Positions 2,073-59,340 of a stretch of 64,000 nt of DNA are shown in pieces. This DNA is from Bacteroidota bacterium (GTDB taxonomy: Bacteria; Bacteroidota; Ignavibacteria; Ignavibacteriales; Ignavibacteriaceae), in NCBI GenBank assembly GCA_020161395.1, contig JAIUOE010000013.1:1-64000 (forward strand), in the 5' to 3' direction. Position numbers and translations under genes: made by a program. Each line of letters opens with the position of its first letter. The first letter of the stretch is position 1. The notes beneath the pieces were generated by a model that was given only the letters and a program-made list of their open reading frames with translations, made no database searches and had not been told where the DNA came from.

Positions 2073-2777
2073 ATGTCAACCTCCTTATTCGCAAAAGAAG
2101 AAAAGAAAATTGAAGTAAAAAAAATGTTTGACTCGATAGCCTCGCGCTACGACCTGCTGAACAGGGTTTTAAGCGCCGGTGTCGATAAATATTGGAGGAA
2201 AAAGGCTCTGAAACTTAGCAGGCTCGACGGAAATTCGATTCTGCTCGACATGGCGTGTGGAACCGGTGATGTGGCTATTCAGGCAAGAAAATATGGCGTA
2301 ACACAGATTTACGGTGCGGATTTCTCCTACAATATGCTTACACTATTCAATAAAAAAGTTGACTGGATAAATAAAAAGAACTTTCAGACTGCTGCCGAGT
2401 TTATTCCTCTTAAGGCAGATTCAGTAACAAATGTAACAGTCGCATTTGGCGTAAGAAACTTCTATGATATCCCGCTGGCATTCAAAGAATTCAACAGAAT
2501 AATAAAAAAAGGCGGACGGGCTACAGTTTTGGAGTTCGCAATGCCAAAAAACAGATTTTTCAAAGCAATCTACAAATTCTACTTTAAAAATGTACTTCCG
2601 ATGGTAGGTAAAATGGTTTCGGGACATCCTATGGCTTACGACTATCTGCCCGACTCCGTGGAAGACTTCGACAAAAATGTTGATCTCGTCAAACTCTTCA
2701 AAGAAGCCGGTTTCTCCAAAGTTGACCGTCACCTCTTCACCTTCGGCATCGTTCAGGTTGTGATAGCAACAAATTAG
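2073..2777 (+). CDS. ubiE: Demethylmenaquinone methyltransferase (UbiE/MenG)
   Basis: A 234-residue class I SAM methyltransferase that performs the last step of menaquinone synthesis; family members also act on ubiquinone precursors. The N-terminal family signature MFDSIASRYDLLNRVLS (from residue ~18) precedes SAM motif I LLDMACGTGD (~61) and the motif VAFGVRN (~121). A menaquinone role is inferred from the lineage and from the succinate dehydrogenase in this window. The stop codon TAG (2775-2777) is the first three bases of a TAGGTAT heptamer array, an unusual gene end. Confidence 0.93.
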   Translation: MSTSLFAKEEKKIEVKKMFDSIASRYDLLNRVLSAGVDKYWRKKALKLSRLDGNSILLDMACGTGDVAIQARKYGVTQIYGADFSYNMLTLFNKKVDWINKKNFQTAAEFIPLKADSVTNVTVAFGVRNFYDIPLAFKEFNRIIKKGGRATVLEFAMPKNRFFKAIYKFYFKNVLPMVGKMVSGHPMAYDYLPDSVEDFDKNVDLVKLFKEAGFSKVDRHLFTFGIVQVVIATN

Positions 2778-2942
2778 GTATTAATTATTAGGTATTAGGT
2801 ATTAATTCGATATACAGACTTTGTACCGAGGACAAAAAATTCTACCCAAATCTCGTCGCTTCAAAAAAAAATGAATTTGGAATAGACAGTAAATTTCTGT
2901 AAATTCTATACCTAATACCTAATACCTAATACCTAATACCTG
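2775..2942. repeat. Inverted heptamer arrays between convergent ubiE and recJ
   Basis: The left array has five 7-nt units (2775-2809; TAGGTAT, TAATTAT, TAGGTAT, TAGGTAT, TAATTCG). The right array has five inverted units (2908-2942; ATACCTA four times, then ATACCTG). They flank 98 nt of AT-rich DNA. The TAG of the first left unit is the ubiE stop, and the TAG of the fourth right unit (2933-2935, minus strand) is the recJ stop. Paired, the arrays would form a long imperfect stem and could act as a two-way terminator. Confidence 0.85.
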
Positions 2943-4645
2943 ACTCTAAGGTCTTTTATCCTCAGTTGTGGATGCGGTTTACATTCGCGACCGGTATTGT
3001 CAATGGTGTAGACGATATCGAGTCGGGTAGATTTCTCTTTTACCTGTTCTTCGAAGTGACCCAGATCGAAACCGATTGCATCGAAAATTTTGTCGTTGCC
3101 GTTCTGCCGAAGCTGGAGGAGCAAGTGGTTGTGTCCCACTTTTCTGACAAATCCTGTGTGCGAAACATCTTCGGACAAAAAGACGGGTCGCGGGTTATCA
3201 GGTCCGAATGGAGCAAACTGGTGGAGTATTCTTAAAAATTTTGGTGTGATTTCAGAAAGTTTGATTTTGGTGTCAATTTCAATTTGAGGGATGAGGTCGT
3301 CATTTTTTATCTGTTCCTTTGCCAGAATATTGAATCTCCTCCTGAACTCCGGAATATTATCAATGTTAATCGAAAGTCCGGCGGCAGCCTGATGTCCTCC
3401 ATAATGATTTAACAGGTCACTACAGTGTTTAAGTGCTTCGTAAATATTGAAGTTGGGAATACTTCTTGCGGAACCTTTCGCCACACCGTCAATGGTCGTA
3501 AGCATTACAGTTGGTCTGTAATAAAGTTCGACCAGTCTGGAAGCAACAATGCCAATCACACCCGGATGCCATTCTTCTTCGTGAAGCACCAGTGCCATGT
3601 CTTCTTCGAGATCGTGGATTCTTAACACCTTCTCGAGAGCGGAATTCAGAGTCTCCTCGTCAAGCTTTCTTCTTTCCCAGTTTTCAGTTTCGAGGAGACG
3701 GGAGAGTTCTTCAGCGCGCGAATAATCATCAGTCATCAAGAGTTCGACGGCAATTTTTGCATCGCTTAATCTGCCGGCAGCATTAATTCGCGGCGCGATG
3801 GAAAATACGATTTGTCCCGCATTCAACTGTCCGGGCTCTATTCTTGTCGCCTTCATGAGCGCCAAAACCCCCGGTCTGGGTGACTTGTTGATCAAATCAA
3901 GGCCATACATTACAAGAATTCTGTTCTCATCAGAAAGTGGAACAATATCTGCTGCACCTGCCATTGCTACAAGATCAAGATATTTCATCGGGAGTGACTG
4001 CTTGCCGAGAAGTGCTGCTACAGCCTGTGCAAGTTTGAATGCTACACCTGCTCCGGAAAGATATTTGAAAGGATAGTTGCAACCCGGTTTCAAAGGGTCG
4101 AGAACTGCAAAGGCAGCGGGTAAAACCTCTCTGGGCTGATGATGATCACAAATAATCATGTCGATGCCGAGGGATTTTGCATAAGCAGCCTCTTCCACCG
4201 CGGTAATTCCGCAATCCACAGAGATAAGGAGGGAGGAGCCTGTAGACTTTACATGGTCGATACCGTGACTGGTAATTCCGTATCCATCACGAAGTCGATT
4301 GGGGATAAAAAACTCAACATTGGCACCCAGTTCCTTCAGAAACATATACATTAGTGCAGTTGAGCATGTGCCATCAACATCATAATCGCCGTAGACGAGT
4401 ATTTTTTCATTTGATGTAATGGCTTGAATTACACGCCGTGCAGCAATCTGCATGCCATGCATCAGGAATGGATTGTGAAGACCTTCGAGGTCAGGCTTAA
4501 AGAAATATCTCGCTGCCGGGAAACTTTTTATGTTCCTGTGAATCAGCAGTTTAGCGAGTACTTCGGAGATGTTCAGAGAGTCTGCGAGAGATTTAATCTC
4601 GAGATCGTCACGAACAGATCTGATCTTCCACCGTTTAGTTGGCAT
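2933..4645 (-). CDS. recJ: Single-stranded-DNA 5'-3' exonuclease RecJ
   Basis: A 570-residue DHH/DHHA1 phosphoesterase that degrades ssDNA in recombination and mismatch repair. Metal-binding motifs are visible in order: YGDYDVDGTCS (~residue 81), SVDCGIT (~142), CDHHQP (~165) and RINAAGRLSDA (~287). The DHHA1 substrate-binding motif GGHQAAAGLS follows at ~415, then an OB-fold C-terminus. Length matches the family. The last two codons and stop (AGG TAT TAG) lie inside the right heptamer array, so the repeat intrudes into coding sequence. Confidence 0.95.
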   Translation of the reverse strand: MPTKRWKIRSVRDDLEIKSLADSLNISEVLAKLLIHRNIKSFPAARYFFKPDLEGLHNPFLMHGMQIAARRVIQAITSNEKILVYGDYDVDGTCSTALMYMFLKELGANVEFFIPNRLRDGYGITSHGIDHVKSTGSSLLISVDCGITAVEEAAYAKSLGIDMIICDHHQPREVLPAAFAVLDPLKPGCNYPFKYLSGAGVAFKLAQAVAALLGKQSLPMKYLDLVAMAGAADIVPLSDENRILVMYGLDLINKSPRPGVLALMKATRIEPGQLNAGQIVFSIAPRINAAGRLSDAKIAVELLMTDDYSRAEELSRLLETENWERRKLDEETLNSALEKVLRIHDLEEDMALVLHEEEWHPGVIGIVASRLVELYYRPTVMLTTIDGVAKGSARSIPNFNIYEALKHCSDLLNHYGGHQAAAGLSINIDNIPEFRRRFNILAKEQIKNDDLIPQIEIDTKIKLSEITPKFLRILHQFAPFGPDNPRPVFLSEDVSHTGFVRKVGHNHLLLQLRQNGNDKIFDAIGFDLGHFEEQVKEKSTRLDIVYTIDNTGRECKPHPQLRIKDLRVRY

Positions 4646-4674
4646 AGTGAACTTACCGTGGAAATATAAGATAT

Positions 4675-5184
4675 AGACCTGACTTGTAAGCCGGATTCTG
4701 TTCCGGTTAAAAGAAATTTCTACAAATGACTACACTTAATGGCGAGTGAGCCGAACGGAATTATCTTCCGGGTGGATACTTAAATCTTTGCACAGACAAT
4801 GTCATCAGGTGTAAACTCATATTGTAAAAATTAAATAAACCGAAGGCAATCATTTATCTGGGATGAAAATTACTTTTCACCTCGAGCAGCCTACCCGAAG
4901 ACATTGGACGGACAGCCCTTCATCCCGCAGAACGGGAATCGTCTTCTGCTTGGCTTTGCTCCGGACGGGGTTTACCTTGCCGAGGATGTTACCATCCACG
5001 CGGTAGGCTCTTACCCTGCCATTTCACCCTTACCCCGATCACTCGGGGCGGTATCTTTTCTGCGGCACTTTCCGTAAATTATCCATTACAGATAACCTCC
5101 CGGGCGTTACCCGGCGTCCTGTCCTGAGGAGTCCGGACTTTCCTCTGCCGTTATAATCGCGACAGCGATTGCCAAGTCAAGTCT
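4675..5184 (-). ncRNA. rnpB: RNase P RNA, type A, with enlarged P19 region
   Basis: On the minus strand the 5' half contains the conserved GAGGAAAGTCCGGACTCC and AGGACAGGACGCC. The middle has AAGGGTGAAA and GGTAAACCCCGTCCGGAGCA, and the 3' half has GGTAGGCTGCTCGAGG, AGATAAATGATTG and ACAGAATCCGGCTTAC. Helix P1 pairs 5175-5184 with 4675-4684 over ten positions (one G-U pair), which sets both ends. At about 510 nt it is longer than the usual ~380-400. The excess is ~144 nt inserted between AAATGATTGCC and ACAGAATCC (4701-4844), closed by a CGGTT/AACCG stem where helix P19 occurs. Confidence 0.95.
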
Positions 5185-5264
5185 ATAAAAATATTCCGTG
5201 ATTTAAAAATTTATGAAAATTATTTACAATGAGCAAATATACAAAAAGGGAAGGAGAAAAACAG

Positions 5265-5290
5265 TTTTTAGTTATGAGTTATTATTTATT
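5265..5290. repeat. Heptamer array, 3' side of the four-helix-bundle gene
   Basis: Units TTTTTAG, TTATGAG, TTATTAT and a partial TTATTT run in 7-nt register. The stop codon of the four-helix-bundle gene (5282-5284, minus strand) falls inside the TTATTAT unit. It is the inverted partner of the array at 5667-5694. Confidence 0.65.
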
Positions 5291-5647
5291 TTTTGGTTGG
5301 GAGTTCTTTTGTTTGAGAGTTTTTATTGATGAGGTCAGCAACCTGAGCAGTTCTTCACATTCTGCATGTATGCTTTCAAATTCGATTTGTGTAAGAATTT
5401 CAGATTTAAATAATAATTTTAGCCAAAATGAGGTCTCTGAACACTCTTTTTGAGCTATGGAGAGTTTGTGTATAAAATCTGTTGTAGATTCTGCATATTT
5501 TGCCTCACTTATGTTTGCTCCGATGCTTGTACCGGATTTCAGGATTTGTGTTGCGAGCACAAATTCTTTCTTCTCTGAAAGATATCTGGAAAGTTTTACA
5601 ATCCTGACAGCAAACTCCATGCTTCTATCCTCGTGCAGAGTCATCAA
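5282..5647 (-). CDS. Four-helix-bundle protein (S23 / 23S rRNA intervening-sequence family)
   Basis: A 121-residue, highly helical protein matching the four-helix-bundle family (PF05635) first found as ORFs inside 23S rRNA intervening sequences. Family-like stretches are AVRIVKLSRYL near the N-terminus, LKSGTSIGANISEA (~residues 46-59) and LSIAQKECSETSFWL (~76-90). Molecular function is unknown; relatives form pentamers and one clade is the accessory protein of diversity-generating retroelements. No rRNA or reverse transcriptase is nearby. The gene sits between inverted ATGAGT-type heptamer arrays, so it looks like an inserted cassette. Start is ATG; the preceding codon order allows either of two adjacent Met. 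Confidence 0.85.
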   Translation of the reverse strand: MMTLHEDRSMEFAVRIVKLSRYLSEKKEFVLATQILKSGTSIGANISEAKYAESTTDFIHKLSIAQKECSETSFWLKLLFKSEILTQIEFESIHAECEELLRLLTSSIKTLKQKNSQPKNK

Positions 5648-5666
5648 TCAGCCTCTAATACACAAA

Positions 5667-5694
5667 CTCATAACTCAAAACTCATAACTAATAA
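5667..5694. repeat. Heptamer array, 5' side of the four-helix-bundle gene
   Basis: Four units in 7-nt register: ACTCATA, ACTCAAA, ACTCATA, ACTAATA. The reverse complement (TATGAGT) matches the array at 5265-5290, giving an inverted pair around the gene. It ends five bases from the stop codon of the zinc-ribbon gene (5699-5701). Confidence 0.7.
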
Positions 5695-13613: not shown

Positions 13614-16337
13614 ATGATTCATACGATACTAAAAATGGTTACTCTTTTTGCGGTGTCAATATTTATGATTTTTATTCAAGGTTGTGCTTCAGTCGACAAC
13701 CCTGTACAGGTGTTGCCGAGCGGTTCCGTTCAGGTGATTACAACCGCGGACGCTAAATGCATACTTTACAAATCGAGTGATATAGTATCGGAATGGACAG
13801 GATCGAAATTAATTCCGGGCTTGGCTGAAGGGACTTACAAGGTCAAAATTACCTCTGATAAATTCAACTCGTCTTTTGAGGAAAGTTTTGAGCTTGGTGT
13901 AAATCAGAAAAAAGTTGTTGAATCTGCCATCGGGTCATTGGATATAAGACTCAAATCCGATTTTACCTGGGAAGTTACAAAAGACAATAAATCCCTTTTT
14001 TCCGGAAAAGGAAGTCTCAAAATTGATACAATCTGGACTGGTGCCTACAAAGTTAAACTGGGTGTTCCGGGAGTTCCCGATTATTTGACAAGGGATATTA
14101 CTGTATCAAAAGCACAAACTTTCGTTCTTGAGATGGAGTCAGGAAAACTGGATGTTAGAATTCCCTCTACAATGGAGGCAATCCTGTCGATTAACGACTC
14201 GACTGAGCTGTACCGGTGGAATGGCAGGAGGATTATCGATTCACTTTGGGCAGGTACCTATCAGATAAAAGTAAAAGTGCACCCGCTGGTTCCGGATTAC
14301 ACATCCAATATTACGATTGTGAAACAACAGACAAAAGTGGTTGAACTGGATTATGCAAAGCTCGATATCAAAGCCAGAAATCAGATGGAATGTATCTTGT
14401 TTCGGGGGAATGTTGAGCTTGACCGCTGGTTTGGGAGTAAACGGTTTGACTCTCTTTGGGTTGGGGATTATACCGTGAAAATAAAGCCAAATCCATTACT
14501 TCCGGAATATTCAACAAGTTTTACATTAATAAAACAGCAGGTCAAAGTAATTGAACTCGATTATGGCACGCTCGACATAAGGGTTCCGGTTCAGATGGAA
14601 TGTGTGCTGTTGAGTGGCGCTACAGAACTTGAACGATGGAACGGCAGCAGAAAATATGACTCTCTTTGGGTCGGGGATTATACGGTGAAGATAAAAGTTA
14701 ATCCCTTGCTTCCTGAATATTCCACGAGTTTTACTTTGGCAAAACAGCAAACCAAAGTGGTTGAGCTTGAATACGGTAAACTTGATGTCAAGGTTCAGAG
14801 TCAGATGCAGTGTGTTTTGTTGAGGGGAACTACAGAAGTTGAACGCTGGAACGGCAGCAGATTATTTGATTCACTTTGGACAGGAGATTACACCGTAAAG
14901 GTTAAGGTTAATGCGTTGCTCCCCGATTATGTAAGCAATGTGTCAATTGTTAAACTTCAAACCAAAACAGTTGAACCACCGATTGGCAGTTTCACGATAA
15001 AAACAAAGAGTGACTACAAGAATACTCTTCTGGTGGATGGCGTTGGGCAACATGTATGGTCAGGGACAAAAGAGTTTAATCCATGGCTTGCGGGAAGTTA
15101 CACTTTAAAGAGTCAGATGTTCCCGGGGGCACCTGCTCCAAGCACCAATTTTACCATCAATCAAAACGAAAACAGGATTATTGAATGGGAAACGGGGAGT
15201 ATTAATGTAGTCGCACCCGGCTCCACATGCAAACTGAAAAGAGACCTGGTGGACCAGTTCACCTGGCAAGGCAGCAGATTACTGGATTCGTTGATTACAG
15301 GTTATTATACTGTTGAAATTCAGGAACCAAATTCACCGTTATGGTTCGGGGATTTCAATTTGATTAAAGACGAACAAAAGATTGTAAGTATCCCCTATGG
15401 TTCGGTTCAGATAACATCGAATATCGCGACCACAGTAACAAAATTGATTTACAACGGAACGACCTTAAAAACTCTCTCCGGGAACGGAACAATCTCGAAC
15501 ATAGTACCCGGAAATTATACCTTGAGGGTGGAGGCTCCCGATTATATCAGCCAGACGGAAAATATATCTGTAACAAGCGGACAAAACCAGCCGAGGAGTT
15601 ATCAGTTACAGCAGGATTACACTCAGATGGTATTCATTCCGGGAGGCACCTTCACGATGGGATGCACTTCAGATCAGGGTGTATGCCTCGATAATGAACG
15701 ACCCTCACATCAGGTTACTCTTTCTGCATATGAAATAAGAAAATTTGAGGTAAATCAGATGGAATGGCTGACAGTAATGGGAACCAACCCGGCGAATTTT
15801 ATTGGTAACAGCAAACCCATGGAATCTGTAACCTGGTTCGAAATTATTAATTTTTGTAATTTATTGAGTACGAGGGAGGGACTTACTCCAGTCTACACCA
15901 TTAACGGTTCAATCGTCACTGCCAACTTGAGCGCTAACGGCTACAGATTGCCAACAGAAGCCGAGTGGGAATATGCTGCAAGAGGTGGTGCCTTGACGAC
16001 CAACACCCTGTATAGTGGAAGTAACAATATTGATGCTGTCGCGTGGTACAACAACAATTCCAATAACACCACACATGATGCAGGTGAGAAAAGTCCGAAC
16101 CAGTTGGGTATTTACGGTATGAATGGAAATGTTTGGGAATGGTGCTGGGACTGGTACGGCGACTACTCGGCGGCAAGTCAGACAAATCCGACAGGTCCCG
16201 AAACAGGTACCCACCGGGTTGCTCGTGGAGGCAGTTGGAGCAGCAGCGCCCAGTACTCCCGCGTGGCTGTCAGGTACAATTTTGCTCCGGACCTTAAGTA
16301 CGACTTTCTCGGTTTCCGTCTTGTAAGAACGAGATGA
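13614..16337 (+). CDS. Lipoprotein with nine ~70-residue tandem repeats and an FGE-fold (SUMF1-like) domain
   Basis: A 907-residue exported protein. The N-terminal segment ends in FIQGCAS, a lipobox that would be lipidated at Cys (~residue 28). Residues ~40-675 form nine tandem beta-rich, PEGA-like repeats of ~68-72 residues with the recurring frame 'WNGSR...DSLWxGDYTVKVK...KQQTKVVELxYG'. Four central copies are very alike even in DNA, suggesting recent duplication. Residues ~680-907 are an FGE-sulfatase domain (MVFIPGGTFTMGC, YRLPTEAEWEYAARGG, GNVWEWCWDW, GFRLVRTR). The tail reads VARGGSWSSSAQYSRVAVRY, without the cysteines that true formylglycine-generating enzymes need, so a binding role is more likely. 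Partner unknown. Confidence 0.85.
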   Translation: MIHTILKMVTLFAVSIFMIFIQGCASVDNPVQVLPSGSVQVITTADAKCILYKSSDIVSEWTGSKLIPGLAEGTYKVKITSDKFNSSFEESFELGVNQKKVVESAIGSLDIRLKSDFTWEVTKDNKSLFSGKGSLKIDTIWTGAYKVKLGVPGVPDYLTRDITVSKAQTFVLEMESGKLDVRIPSTMEAILSINDSTELYRWNGRRIIDSLWAGTYQIKVKVHPLVPDYTSNITIVKQQTKVVELDYAKLDIKARNQMECILFRGNVELDRWFGSKRFDSLWVGDYTVKIKPNPLLPEYSTSFTLIKQQVKVIELDYGTLDIRVPVQMECVLLSGATELERWNGSRKYDSLWVGDYTVKIKVNPLLPEYSTSFTLAKQQTKVVELEYGKLDVKVQSQMQCVLLRGTTEVERWNGSRLFDSLWTGDYTVKVKVNALLPDYVSNVSIVKLQTKTVEPPIGSFTIKTKSDYKNTLLVDGVGQHVWSGTKEFNPWLAGSYTLKSQMFPGAPAPSTNFTINQNENRIIEWETGSINVVAPGSTCKLKRDLVDQFTWQGSRLLDSLITGYYTVEIQEPNSPLWFGDFNLIKDEQKIVSIPYGSVQITSNIATTVTKLIYNGTTLKTLSGNGTISNIVPGNYTLRVEAPDYISQTENISVTSGQNQPRSYQLQQDYTQMVFIPGGTFTMGCTSDQGVCLDNERPSHQVTLSAYEIRKFEVNQMEWLTVMGTNPANFIGNSKPMESVTWFEIINFCNLLSTREGLTPVYTINGSIVTANLSANGYRLPTEAEWEYAARGGALTTNTLYSGSNNIDAVAWYNNNSNNTTHDAGEKSPNQLGIYGMNGNVWEWCWDWYGDYSAASQTNPTGPETGTHRVARGGSWSSSAQYSRVAVRYNFAPDLKYDFLGFRLVRTR

Positions 16338-28178: not shown

Positions 28179-28191
28179 AGTGCCAGAGAGG

Positions 28192-28320
28192 CTTGAGAAA
28201 CTTGAGAAACCTGAGAATCTCGAGAGAATTGAGAAACCTGAGAACCTGAGAGACCTGAGAGACTTGAGAAACTCGAGAGACATGAGAAACTTGAGTAATC
28301 GAGTAACTGAGAGACCTGAG
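28192..28320. repeat. Outer left nonamer array (CTTGAGAAA type) of the transposase module
   Basis: About 14 imperfect 9-nt units with consensus YTTGAGAAA or CTGAGAGAC, starting 13 nt after the S9 peptidase stop. It is the inverted partner of the array at 29554-29670. Its 9-nt period gives a spurious open frame (repeating Leu-Glu-Lys) that should not be read as a gene. Confidence 0.9.
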
Positions 28321-28356
28321 TCATATTGGGTCGCGACAAACTCAAAAAATTGGTTT

Positions 28357-28500
28357 GGCCCCGGACGGGGTCAAGTATGGGTAGCATGTACGGGTAGCAA
28401 CGATATCAAAAAATGTTATGGCCCCGGACGGGGTCATGTATGGGTAGCAACGGAATTAACAAATGTTTTGGCCCCGGACGGGGTCAAGTATGGGTAACAA
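28357..28500 (+). repeat. Inner left REP-like array, three hairpin units
   Basis: Hairpin GGCCCCGGACGGGGTC occurs at 28357-28372, 28420-28435 and 28470-28485. Each is followed by the word GTATGGGTAGCAA (the last copy reads GTATGGGTAACAA). Start-to-start spacing is 63 and 50 nt; the 63-nt unit has the GTAYGGGTAG word twice. A degenerate unit may precede the first copy (28321-28356). The last unit ends at 28500, directly before the transposase start. Confidence 0.9.
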
Positions 28501-28950
28501 TTGTCACATTCAACATACACACAAATATATTTACACATAGTTTTTGCGGTTAAATCGAGAGAAAAAGTTCTTAAATCAACATTTCGTCAAGAGGTGTTAA
28601 AATTCATTACCGCAATCATTCAATCACGCAAGCACAAAGTTCGTGAGATTAACGGTGTCGAGGATCATATACATATCCTTATCGGCTATAATCCCATTCA
28701 ATCTCTTCCTGACTTGATCCGCGACATTAAATCGGAATCATCAAAATTTATAAACGAAAAGCGATTTATTCACGGGCATTTTAGTTGGCAGGAAGGTTAC
28801 GGCGCATTTTCTATCGGAAAAACGGAGCTGGATAGAATTCACATATATATTCGTAATCAGGAAGTGCATCATTTGGAAGAAAGTTCTATTTCCGAGATAA
28901 GGCGTTTTCTTGCATCTTACGGGCATGAAAACCCTGAAAATTATAAATGA
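28501..28950 (+). CDS. IS200/IS605-type Y1 (HUH) transposase, RAYT-like
   Basis: 149 residues. The family core is present: TQIYLHIVFAVKSRE at the N-terminus, the HUH metal motif in GVEDHIHILIG (~residues 54-64), WQEGYGAF (~98) and the catalytic Tyr in IYIRNQEVHH (~118-127). These enzymes cut and join single-stranded DNA at hairpin feet. No tnpB or guide RNA gene accompanies it. The only in-frame start is TTG at 28501 (TAA at 28495 lies just upstream), so expression may be weak. Hairpin units touch both ends of the ORF: one ends at 28500, the other begins at 28951. The gene looks intact. Confidence 0.9.
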   Translation: MSHSTYTQIYLHIVFAVKSREKVLKSTFRQEVLKFITAIIQSRKHKVREINGVEDHIHILIGYNPIQSLPDLIRDIKSESSKFINEKRFIHGHFSWQEGYGAFSIGKTELDRIHIYIRNQEVHHLEESSISEIRRFLASYGHENPENYK

Positions 28951-29534
28951 TCTACCCATACACGACCCCTTGCGGGGCCGACGCAATTATTGATTTTTGC
29001 TACCCATACATTTCTACCCATACACGACCCCATCCGGGGCCGACGCAATATTTGATTTTGGTGTTACCCATACATTTCTACCCATACACGACCCCTTGCG
29101 GGGCCGACGCAATTATTGATTTTTGCTACCCATACACGACCCCATGCGGGGCCGACACAATTATTGATTTTTGCTACCCATACACGACCCCATGCGGGGC
29201 CGACACAATTATTGATTTTTGCTACCCATACACGACCCCTTGCGGGGCCGACCAAATATTTGATTTTGGTGTTACCCATACATTTCTACCCAACACGACC
29301 CCTTGCGGGGCCGACGCAATATTTGATTTTTGCTACCCATACACGACCCCATGCGGGGCCGACGCAATATTTGATTTTGGTGTTACCCATACATTTCTAC
29401 CCATACACGACCCCATCCGGGGCCGACACAATATTTGATTTTTGCTACCCATACATTTCTACCCATACACGACCCCATGCGGGGCCGACTCAATTATTGA
29501 TTTTTGCTACCCATACACGACCCCATGCGGGGCC
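28951..29534 (-). repeat. Inner right REP-like array, eleven inverted hairpin units
   Basis: Core GACCCC-NNNN-GGGGCC starts at 28964, 29026, 29090, 29138, 29186, 29234, 29297, 29345, 29409, 29471 and 29519. Loops are TTGC, ATGC or ATCC. Spacings are 62, 64, 48, 48, 48, 63, 48, 64, 62 and 48 nt, so units come in two sizes. The long ones carry an extra 14-nt copy of the GTATGGGTAG word (minus-strand sense). Because 48 nt is 16 codons, all three plus frames stay open for long stretches; these frames are not genes. Confidence 0.93.
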
Positions 29535-29553
29535 AATTTTTCATTTGTTCGAT

Positions 29554-29670
29554 CTCTCAGGTTTCTCAAGTCTCTCGAGTTTCTCAAGTTTCTCAAGTTT
29601 CTCAAGTTTCTCAAGTCGCTCAAGTTTCTCAATTCTCTCAAGTCTCTCGAGTTTCTCAGGTCTCTCAATT
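29554..29670. repeat. Outer right nonamer array (inverted copy)
   Basis: Thirteen consecutive 9-nt units (117 nt), consensus TTCTCAAGT, the reverse complement of the left array word. The last unit (29662-29670) contains the stop codon of the adjacent membrane-protein gene (29665-29667). Confidence 0.92.
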
Positions 29671-59304: not shown

Positions 59305-59312
59305 GTTTTTAC

Positions 59313-59340
59313 TTATCAGTTATGACTTATAAGTTATTAT
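59313..59340. repeat. Heptamer array between convergent lptD-like gene and yajQ
   Basis: Four 7-nt units: TTATCAG, TTATGAC, TTATAAG, TTATTAT. It starts nine bases after the lptD-like stop and ends four bases before the yajQ stop (59344-59346). Same word family as 5265-5290. Confidence 0.7.

Follow-up and report, generated by a model that had tools for sequence, protein, structure and literature searches.

A comparison of related genomes makes it quite probable that the feature between the convergent genes ubiE and recJ is an ORF-less member of a family of mobile, exchangeable hairpin cassettes, in which inverted arrays of short words close a core. Judged by their sequences, other members of this family carry a gene for a PF05635 four-helix-bundle protein in the core. 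The stretch of DNA analyzed here (the window) comprises positions 1–64,000 of contig JAIUOE010000013.1 (C13) from genome G000 (GCA_020161395.1; Bacteroidota, Ignavibacteriaceae). It was compared with the congeners G001, G002 and G003, the last being the sister species of G000, and a fifth genome, G005, was also searched. An inverted pair of TAGGTAT arrays occupies the gap between the two genes, as follows.

2073–2777 (+): ubiE, ubiquinone/menaquinone methyltransferase family, with its 3′ end at the left array
2773–2805 (+): left heptamer array, with TAGGTAT words at 2775, 2789 and 2796
2806–2907 (−): cassette core, a dispersed repeat (match 2793–2911, 79% to the C5 copy)
2908–2941 (−): right heptamer array, inverted, with four minus-strand TAGGTAT words
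2933–4645 (−): recJ, single-stranded-DNA exonuclease, with its 3′ end within the right array

The preliminary description held that both genes stop on the TAG of a TAGGTAT heptamer, and the coordinates bear this out. The ubiE stop (2775–2777, +) forms the opening letters of the TAGGTAT at 2775–2781, and recJ does end AGG TAT TAG inside the inverted right array, its stop (2935–2933, −) opening the minus-strand TAGGTAT at 2935–2929. The related claim that the arrays reach into both reading frames stands in full for RecJ, whose last two residues (RY) and stop are array-encoded, but for UbiE it holds for the stop codon alone. The arms (2773–2802 and 2908–2937) are 30 nt long, 93% complementary and 105 nt apart. 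That they would pair into a strong stem was confirmed by RNA folding of the element on both strands (−55.2 kcal/mol, z −5.79, for the plus strand and −57.8 kcal/mol, z −5.77, for the minus strand), since none of 200 shuffles folded as low in either case. TAGGTAT occurs nine times in the 64-kb window, seven of them at ubiE/recJ; when the whole window was shuffled the mean was 3.74, and at least nine copies arose in 2 of 100 shuffles. No ORF of at least 80 aa was listed in the core, no PF05635/S23 ORF was found in its 105 nt, and no known RNA family reached the Rfam gathering score at the element. The core was also considered as a structured RNA, a candidate that was dropped when a 108-nt stretch of the C5 copy folded with a z of only −0.62.

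To follow the core, 116 bases of the C5 copy were searched against the five genomes (G000, G001, G002, G003 and G005). G000 contains three copies, C5:261944–262059 (100%), C2:211435–211551 (84%) and window 2793–2911 (79%), all of which have TAGGTAT/ATACCTA arms and lie between convergent ORFs. G003 has a single full copy, which lies at the C2-orthologous site, besides a weak match of 33 nt, and the search returned no copy in G001, G002 or G005. At the C2 site the left arm consists of two TAGGTAT words in G000 versus nine in G003. A fourth TAGGTAT pair in G000, at C9, encloses a PF05635 four-helix-bundle gene; this cassette and the small one have the word in common, and no common core was detected. 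Because the core recurs at several loci, the sequences indicate that the ubiE/recJ feature is a dispersed cassette, with three core copies in the genome, and not the product of local slippage.

The cassettes turn over at fixed sites. G003 is about 90% identical to G000 in DNA and syntenic over the stretch compared; at ubiE/recJ it lacks the core and has an AGCTATG-like heptamer hairpin with a short, unrelated loop. G002 has other heptamers there (GTGTAGA, AACCACT), and no heptamer array was seen by eye in G001. The preliminary description had proposed comparing the two C-termini in relatives without the array. Among the three congeners, this comparison found that G003 and G002 have arrays in other letters, with both stops being TAG at the array edge, and that in G001, the one congener without an array, ubiE stops at the same position, with TAA, and RecJ continues further (it has a serine-rich extension in this genome). 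An origin of the array from a stop-codon context, as had been suggested, does not agree with these data: the array-less ubiE of G001 ends at the same residue, and the core is also present at two other loci, which together argue that the unit came from elsewhere.

Other sites behave similarly. At the C5 site, G003 has an AGCTATG-like hairpin and no core, while no heptamer array was seen by eye in G002 or G001, the latter having a longer-period repeat there. At the C9 site, the TAGGTAT arms around the PF05635 gene of G000 are replaced in G003 by a GGCTGAA/TTCAGCC hairpin; G002 has an AAATGTG array with a short inverted partner, and none was seen by eye in G001. For three of the four TAGGTAT cassettes compared, the corresponding site in G003 holds a heptamer hairpin made of other words. 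Over 400 kb of C1, where 18 sites were clustered by hand, several keep their words in G003, 208345 has other letters there in each arm, and at 397405 and 258992 the period is 8 in G000 but 7 in G003. The site at 142818 has about two words in G000 versus a 71-nt hairpin in G003. An octamer-armed PF05635 cassette in G003 accounts for a difference of 548 nt from G000, which has two words there, being either the remnant of a cassette or one that has not yet grown. No target-site duplication was seen by eye at the cassette sites compared, which included no clean empty site, and neither an excision product nor a recombinase was identified. G001 gave no PF05635 match, and the array pattern AVCTHAT matched it once, against four matches in the reversed control.

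The second cassette of the window lies beyond recJ, and an RNase P RNA (RF00010, minus strand, 4671–5184) sits between the two.

5263–5694 (−): second window cassette, with inverted heptamer arrays at 5263–5290 and 5665–5694
5282–5647: PF05635 four-helix-bundle gene in this cassette, which is kept with its arms in G003

G000 has three PF05635 genes (in the window, at C9 and, with octamer arms, on C1), and inverted short-word arms flank all three. To determine how general this association is, the 250 nt on the left of each gene were compared by alignment with the reverse-complemented 250 nt on its right, with a score of at least 17 as the threshold. Of 140 PF05635 loci, 3 with a flank shorter than 100 nt were left out, and 96 of the remaining 137 scored, compared with 3 of 889 placements made at random within these loci, coding positions included. 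The loci came from the organism's own order (23 of 30 scoring), from a named set of 79 in many phyla, drawn from the best 80 of 400 (58 scoring), and from further members of the same phylum (15 of 28). Poribacteria supplied 27 of the 79 named loci, and 23 of these scored versus 35 of the 52 others. Among the 96 scoring loci the period was 7 in 77 and 8 in 4, with none detected in 15; of the 41 below the threshold, 23 still had an aligned arm of period 7. Read inward, the arms had more G than C at 70 of the 96 loci, less at 19 and equal amounts at 7. In a gene-matched control, 4 of 148 other ORFs of 300–450 nt scored. The PF05635-motif ORFs in the control stretches scored in 7 of 7 cases, a count that is not independent of the first set because most stretches had been chosen for holding a PF05635 gene.

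PF05635 was present in 235 of 296 sampled genomes of Bacteroidota. The number of PF05635 genes did not track array density in eight genomes (77–100 kb sampled from each); genomes with 19, 20, 15 and 15 such genes had 2, 13, 0 and 2 intergenic arrays per 100 kb, respectively. Recognition of the word by its own PF05635 protein looked positive at first, with a rho of 0.27 between lineages across all sets, and was then rejected, as the between-group rho in the named set was 0.06, a value reached by 53 of 500 permutations, and the signal was gone; Poribacteria taken by themselves still show a correlation (rho 0.495). The idea that DUF559 endonucleases form a second cargo, prompted by one control match, was not borne out over 30 loci. 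One locus was dropped for a cut flank, 2 of 19 stand-alone genes scored at least 17, neither with period 7, and 5 of 10 in long ORFs scored, with GC-rich palindromes. In L321–L350, the flanks of several DUF559 genes consist of GC-rich CCCCTCC/GGAGGGG palindromes and not of heptamer arrays. Sequence relatives of PF05635 in the PDB are 2rld and 2gsc; the latter is XCC0516, a PF05635 protein from the Xanthomonas species for which inverted GGGAATC arrays have been reported. PMC10053308 reports homology between the family and Avd, which serves diversity-generating retroelements as an accessory protein, and PMC4990558 describes PF05635 proteins as having no known function.

The cassettes abut stop codons. 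Among the 152 assignable sides of 96 cassettes (40 of 192 sides had no assignable neighbor and were left out), 95 face an ORF 3′ end; stop-to-stop ORFs were used, so some of these neighbors may not be genes. Relative to the outer arm edge, the facing stop falls in the interval from −40 to +30 nt in 85 of the 95 cases (median, 1 nt), and in 44 of the 95 it lies inside that edge. For arrays of period 7–9 in general, we counted clusters with an edge at most 20 nt from a stop, expectations being derived from random placement within the same gaps over the sampled chromosome; clusters inside ORFs and one window cluster without two flanking ORFs were left out. In G000, 14 of 19 intergenic clusters had such an edge where 6.6 were expected, and in the window 6 of 7 did where 3.2 were expected; the effect was weak in G003 (13 of 24, versus 10.9 expected). 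A script-made count by gap type placed 18 of 50 clusters in convergent gaps, 27 in codirectional and 5 in divergent ones, whereas the 378 gaps of at least 40 nt comprise 76, 206 and 96, respectively; arrays are thus enriched between convergent genes and depleted between divergent ones. Since arrays abut stop codons as a rule, two stops inside one cassette, an arrangement that would be odd by naive chance, are expected fairly often. At C9, the left protein of G000 is seven residues longer than in G001, G002 and G003 and ends inside the array, so that here the array removed one stop and supplied another; of the genes beside this cassette, one ends with TAA inside the array and the other with TGA outside it. 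Selection of the words for containing stops was considered and is not supported, because the frequency of stop triplets was no lower in the outward reading (0.093 per position) than in the inward one (0.088). Both rates exceed the 0.068 expected from composition (inward reading).

An alternative is that the tandem words form a two-way terminator, as initially proposed, or an mRNA-end hairpin, the arrays being kept for ending or protecting both convergent mRNAs. The strong stem on both strands, the excess of convergent gaps and the persistence of hairpins at sites where the letters change all agree with it, as does a study of Xanthomonas citri in which transcript starts or stops coincided with G4-forming heptamer repeats more often than with control repeats (PMC4692102). 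However, a consensus scan found no terminator-like site in 2775–2942, and the G+C-rich stem followed by a U-tract that defines an intrinsic terminator is absent at ubiE/recJ, neither arm being followed by such a tract, so termination is not supported as the main reading. Furthermore, at C1 258992 the loop holds a separate, canonical terminator that is unchanged in the sister species while the left array differs, G001 manages without an array at ubiE/recJ, and neither the dispersed core nor the PF05635 cargo is explained. We consider a terminator or mRNA-end function rather unlikely as the account of this element.

The window contains other repeats. At 28186–29668, about 1.2 kb of DNA containing further inverted repeats (CTACCCATACACGACCCC) lies between inverted arrays of 9-letter words (CTTGAGAAA / TCTCAAGTT). 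The G003 counterpart has no 9-mer arrays and contains a gene for an IS200-like Y1 transposase (L105:9866–10312), suggesting that this region may be a REP/RAYT-like cluster; the transposase gene lies in that G003 repeat cluster and not in the heptamer cassettes. A 210-nt tandem repeat (77% matches) is present in about two copies at 14447–14879, and a self-complementary heptamer-like array (ACTTATAAGTTATG) lies at 59311–59337, where two convergent ORFs are separated by 39 nt. Another way to account for the arrays is local replication slippage with fold-back copying: a short direct repeat would lengthen and be copied into the opposite arm, building a palindromic array on the spot with no mobile unit involved. 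This would fit the whole-word differences in array length (as in the C2 left arm), the site at 142818 and the inverted 9-mer arrays at 28192–29668 that G003 lacks, but we hold it to be quite improbable, given that within a single genome the same few families of words turn up at many sites, that a core common to three loci disfavors it at ubiE/recJ and that a PF05635 gene is the cargo in many phyla. Slippage is probably superimposed on the mobile cassette.

MITEs and REP/RAYT elements are short, non-coding, dispersed palindromic units, often found at gene ends and moved in trans. The ubiE/recJ cassette resembles them in having several dispersed core copies (three in G000, one in G003), terminal inverted repeats, namely the 30-nt arms, and sites (ubiE/recJ and C5) at which G003 has another hairpin in place of the core. 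By contrast, no transposase partner or target duplication was found for the cassettes, and their ends are word arrays whose letters differ between families. The C9 PF05635 cassette, which has the same TAGGTAT word, is a candidate autonomous partner; to our knowledge, PF05635 is not a known transposase.

Heptamer repeats are over-represented in bacterial intergenic DNA, and their origin is not agreed (PMC4692102). Rehm and colleagues (2015) described G-rich tandem heptamers in Xanthomonas, with similar repeats in Nostoc (PMC4692102). Like the arrays described here, these form close inverted pairs (70 and 75 cases in two species), are mostly intergenic, at most 50 bp from stops or overlapping them, are rare between divergent genes, and accompany the same genes in different species while varying in length and sequence (PMC4692102). 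The ubiE/recJ arrays likewise are tandem heptamers in inverted pairs beside stop codons. The work on the Xanthomonas repeats dealt with a single word in each species and with G-quadruplex formation (PMC4692102), whereas TAGGTAT has none of the G-tracts of three or more that go with G-quadruplexes of the Xanthomonas type. A word search of the text of PMC4692102 found no four-helix, 23S or intervening-sequence gene. TAACTGA arrays, reported from Beggiatoaceae, Cyanobacteria and Bacteroidetes (MacGregor 2015; PMC4679880), are also heptamer arrays scattered through the intergenic DNA of several phyla, again with an unexplained origin, but they are direct, with one inverted set reported in the main genome; most lie just upstream of start codons, and a role in translation was proposed for them (PMC4679880). 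Prokaryote satellites derived from heptamers are mentioned in PMC6749651.

A close parallel to the PF05635 cassettes is offered by the rRNA intervening sequences, inserts that contain an S23/PF05635 ORF, are excised by RNase III, which cuts their stem, and have been called selfish (PMC4990558); PF05635 ORFs also occur in rRNA inserts of CPR bacteria (PMC11270868). Intervening sequences are stem-bounded and have the PF05635 ORF in the loop (PMC4990558), as does the cassette at 5263–5694, among others. Unlike intervening sequences, the cassettes lie between protein genes and have word-array ends, and the ubiE/recJ copy, located outside rRNA genes, has no PF05635/S23 ORF. Heptamer repeats beside stop codons are already known from Xanthomonas. 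In the open-licence literature, none of the matches listed was recognized as linking PF05635, four-helix-bundle or S23 proteins to heptamer arrays.

We infer that, where an array is already present, one cassette can displace another or insert into it; the probable route is recombination, gene conversion or template switching, with arrays or their hairpins as the partners. The four-helix protein, a homologue of Avd, may act in trans on the cassettes. Arrays would extend as far as stops because overwriting is tolerated in intergenic DNA but for the most part not in coding sequence; when an array edge passes a stop, the words could supply a new one, since successive repeats of 7 nt are read in each of the three frames in turn. 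Once transcribed, the element would fold into a long stem, which may be cut by a double-strand RNase, as in rRNA intervening sequences. More tentatively, and as a possibility that we rate well below membership of the cassette family itself, PF05635 proteins may be the mobility factors of minimal cassettes with inverted heptamer-array ends that occur across phyla and swap at array sites by array pairing, without a transposase. Non-coding copies such as that at ubiE/recJ would then ride along, rRNA intervening sequences would be a special case housed in rRNA helices, and many unexplained bacterial heptamer repeats would be traces of such cassettes. The C9 site shows a route by which a gene can lose its stop and gain a new one together with a few new residues. 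Treating the protein and the arrays as one mobile unit would make both the origin of heptamer repeats and the function of PF05635 testable.
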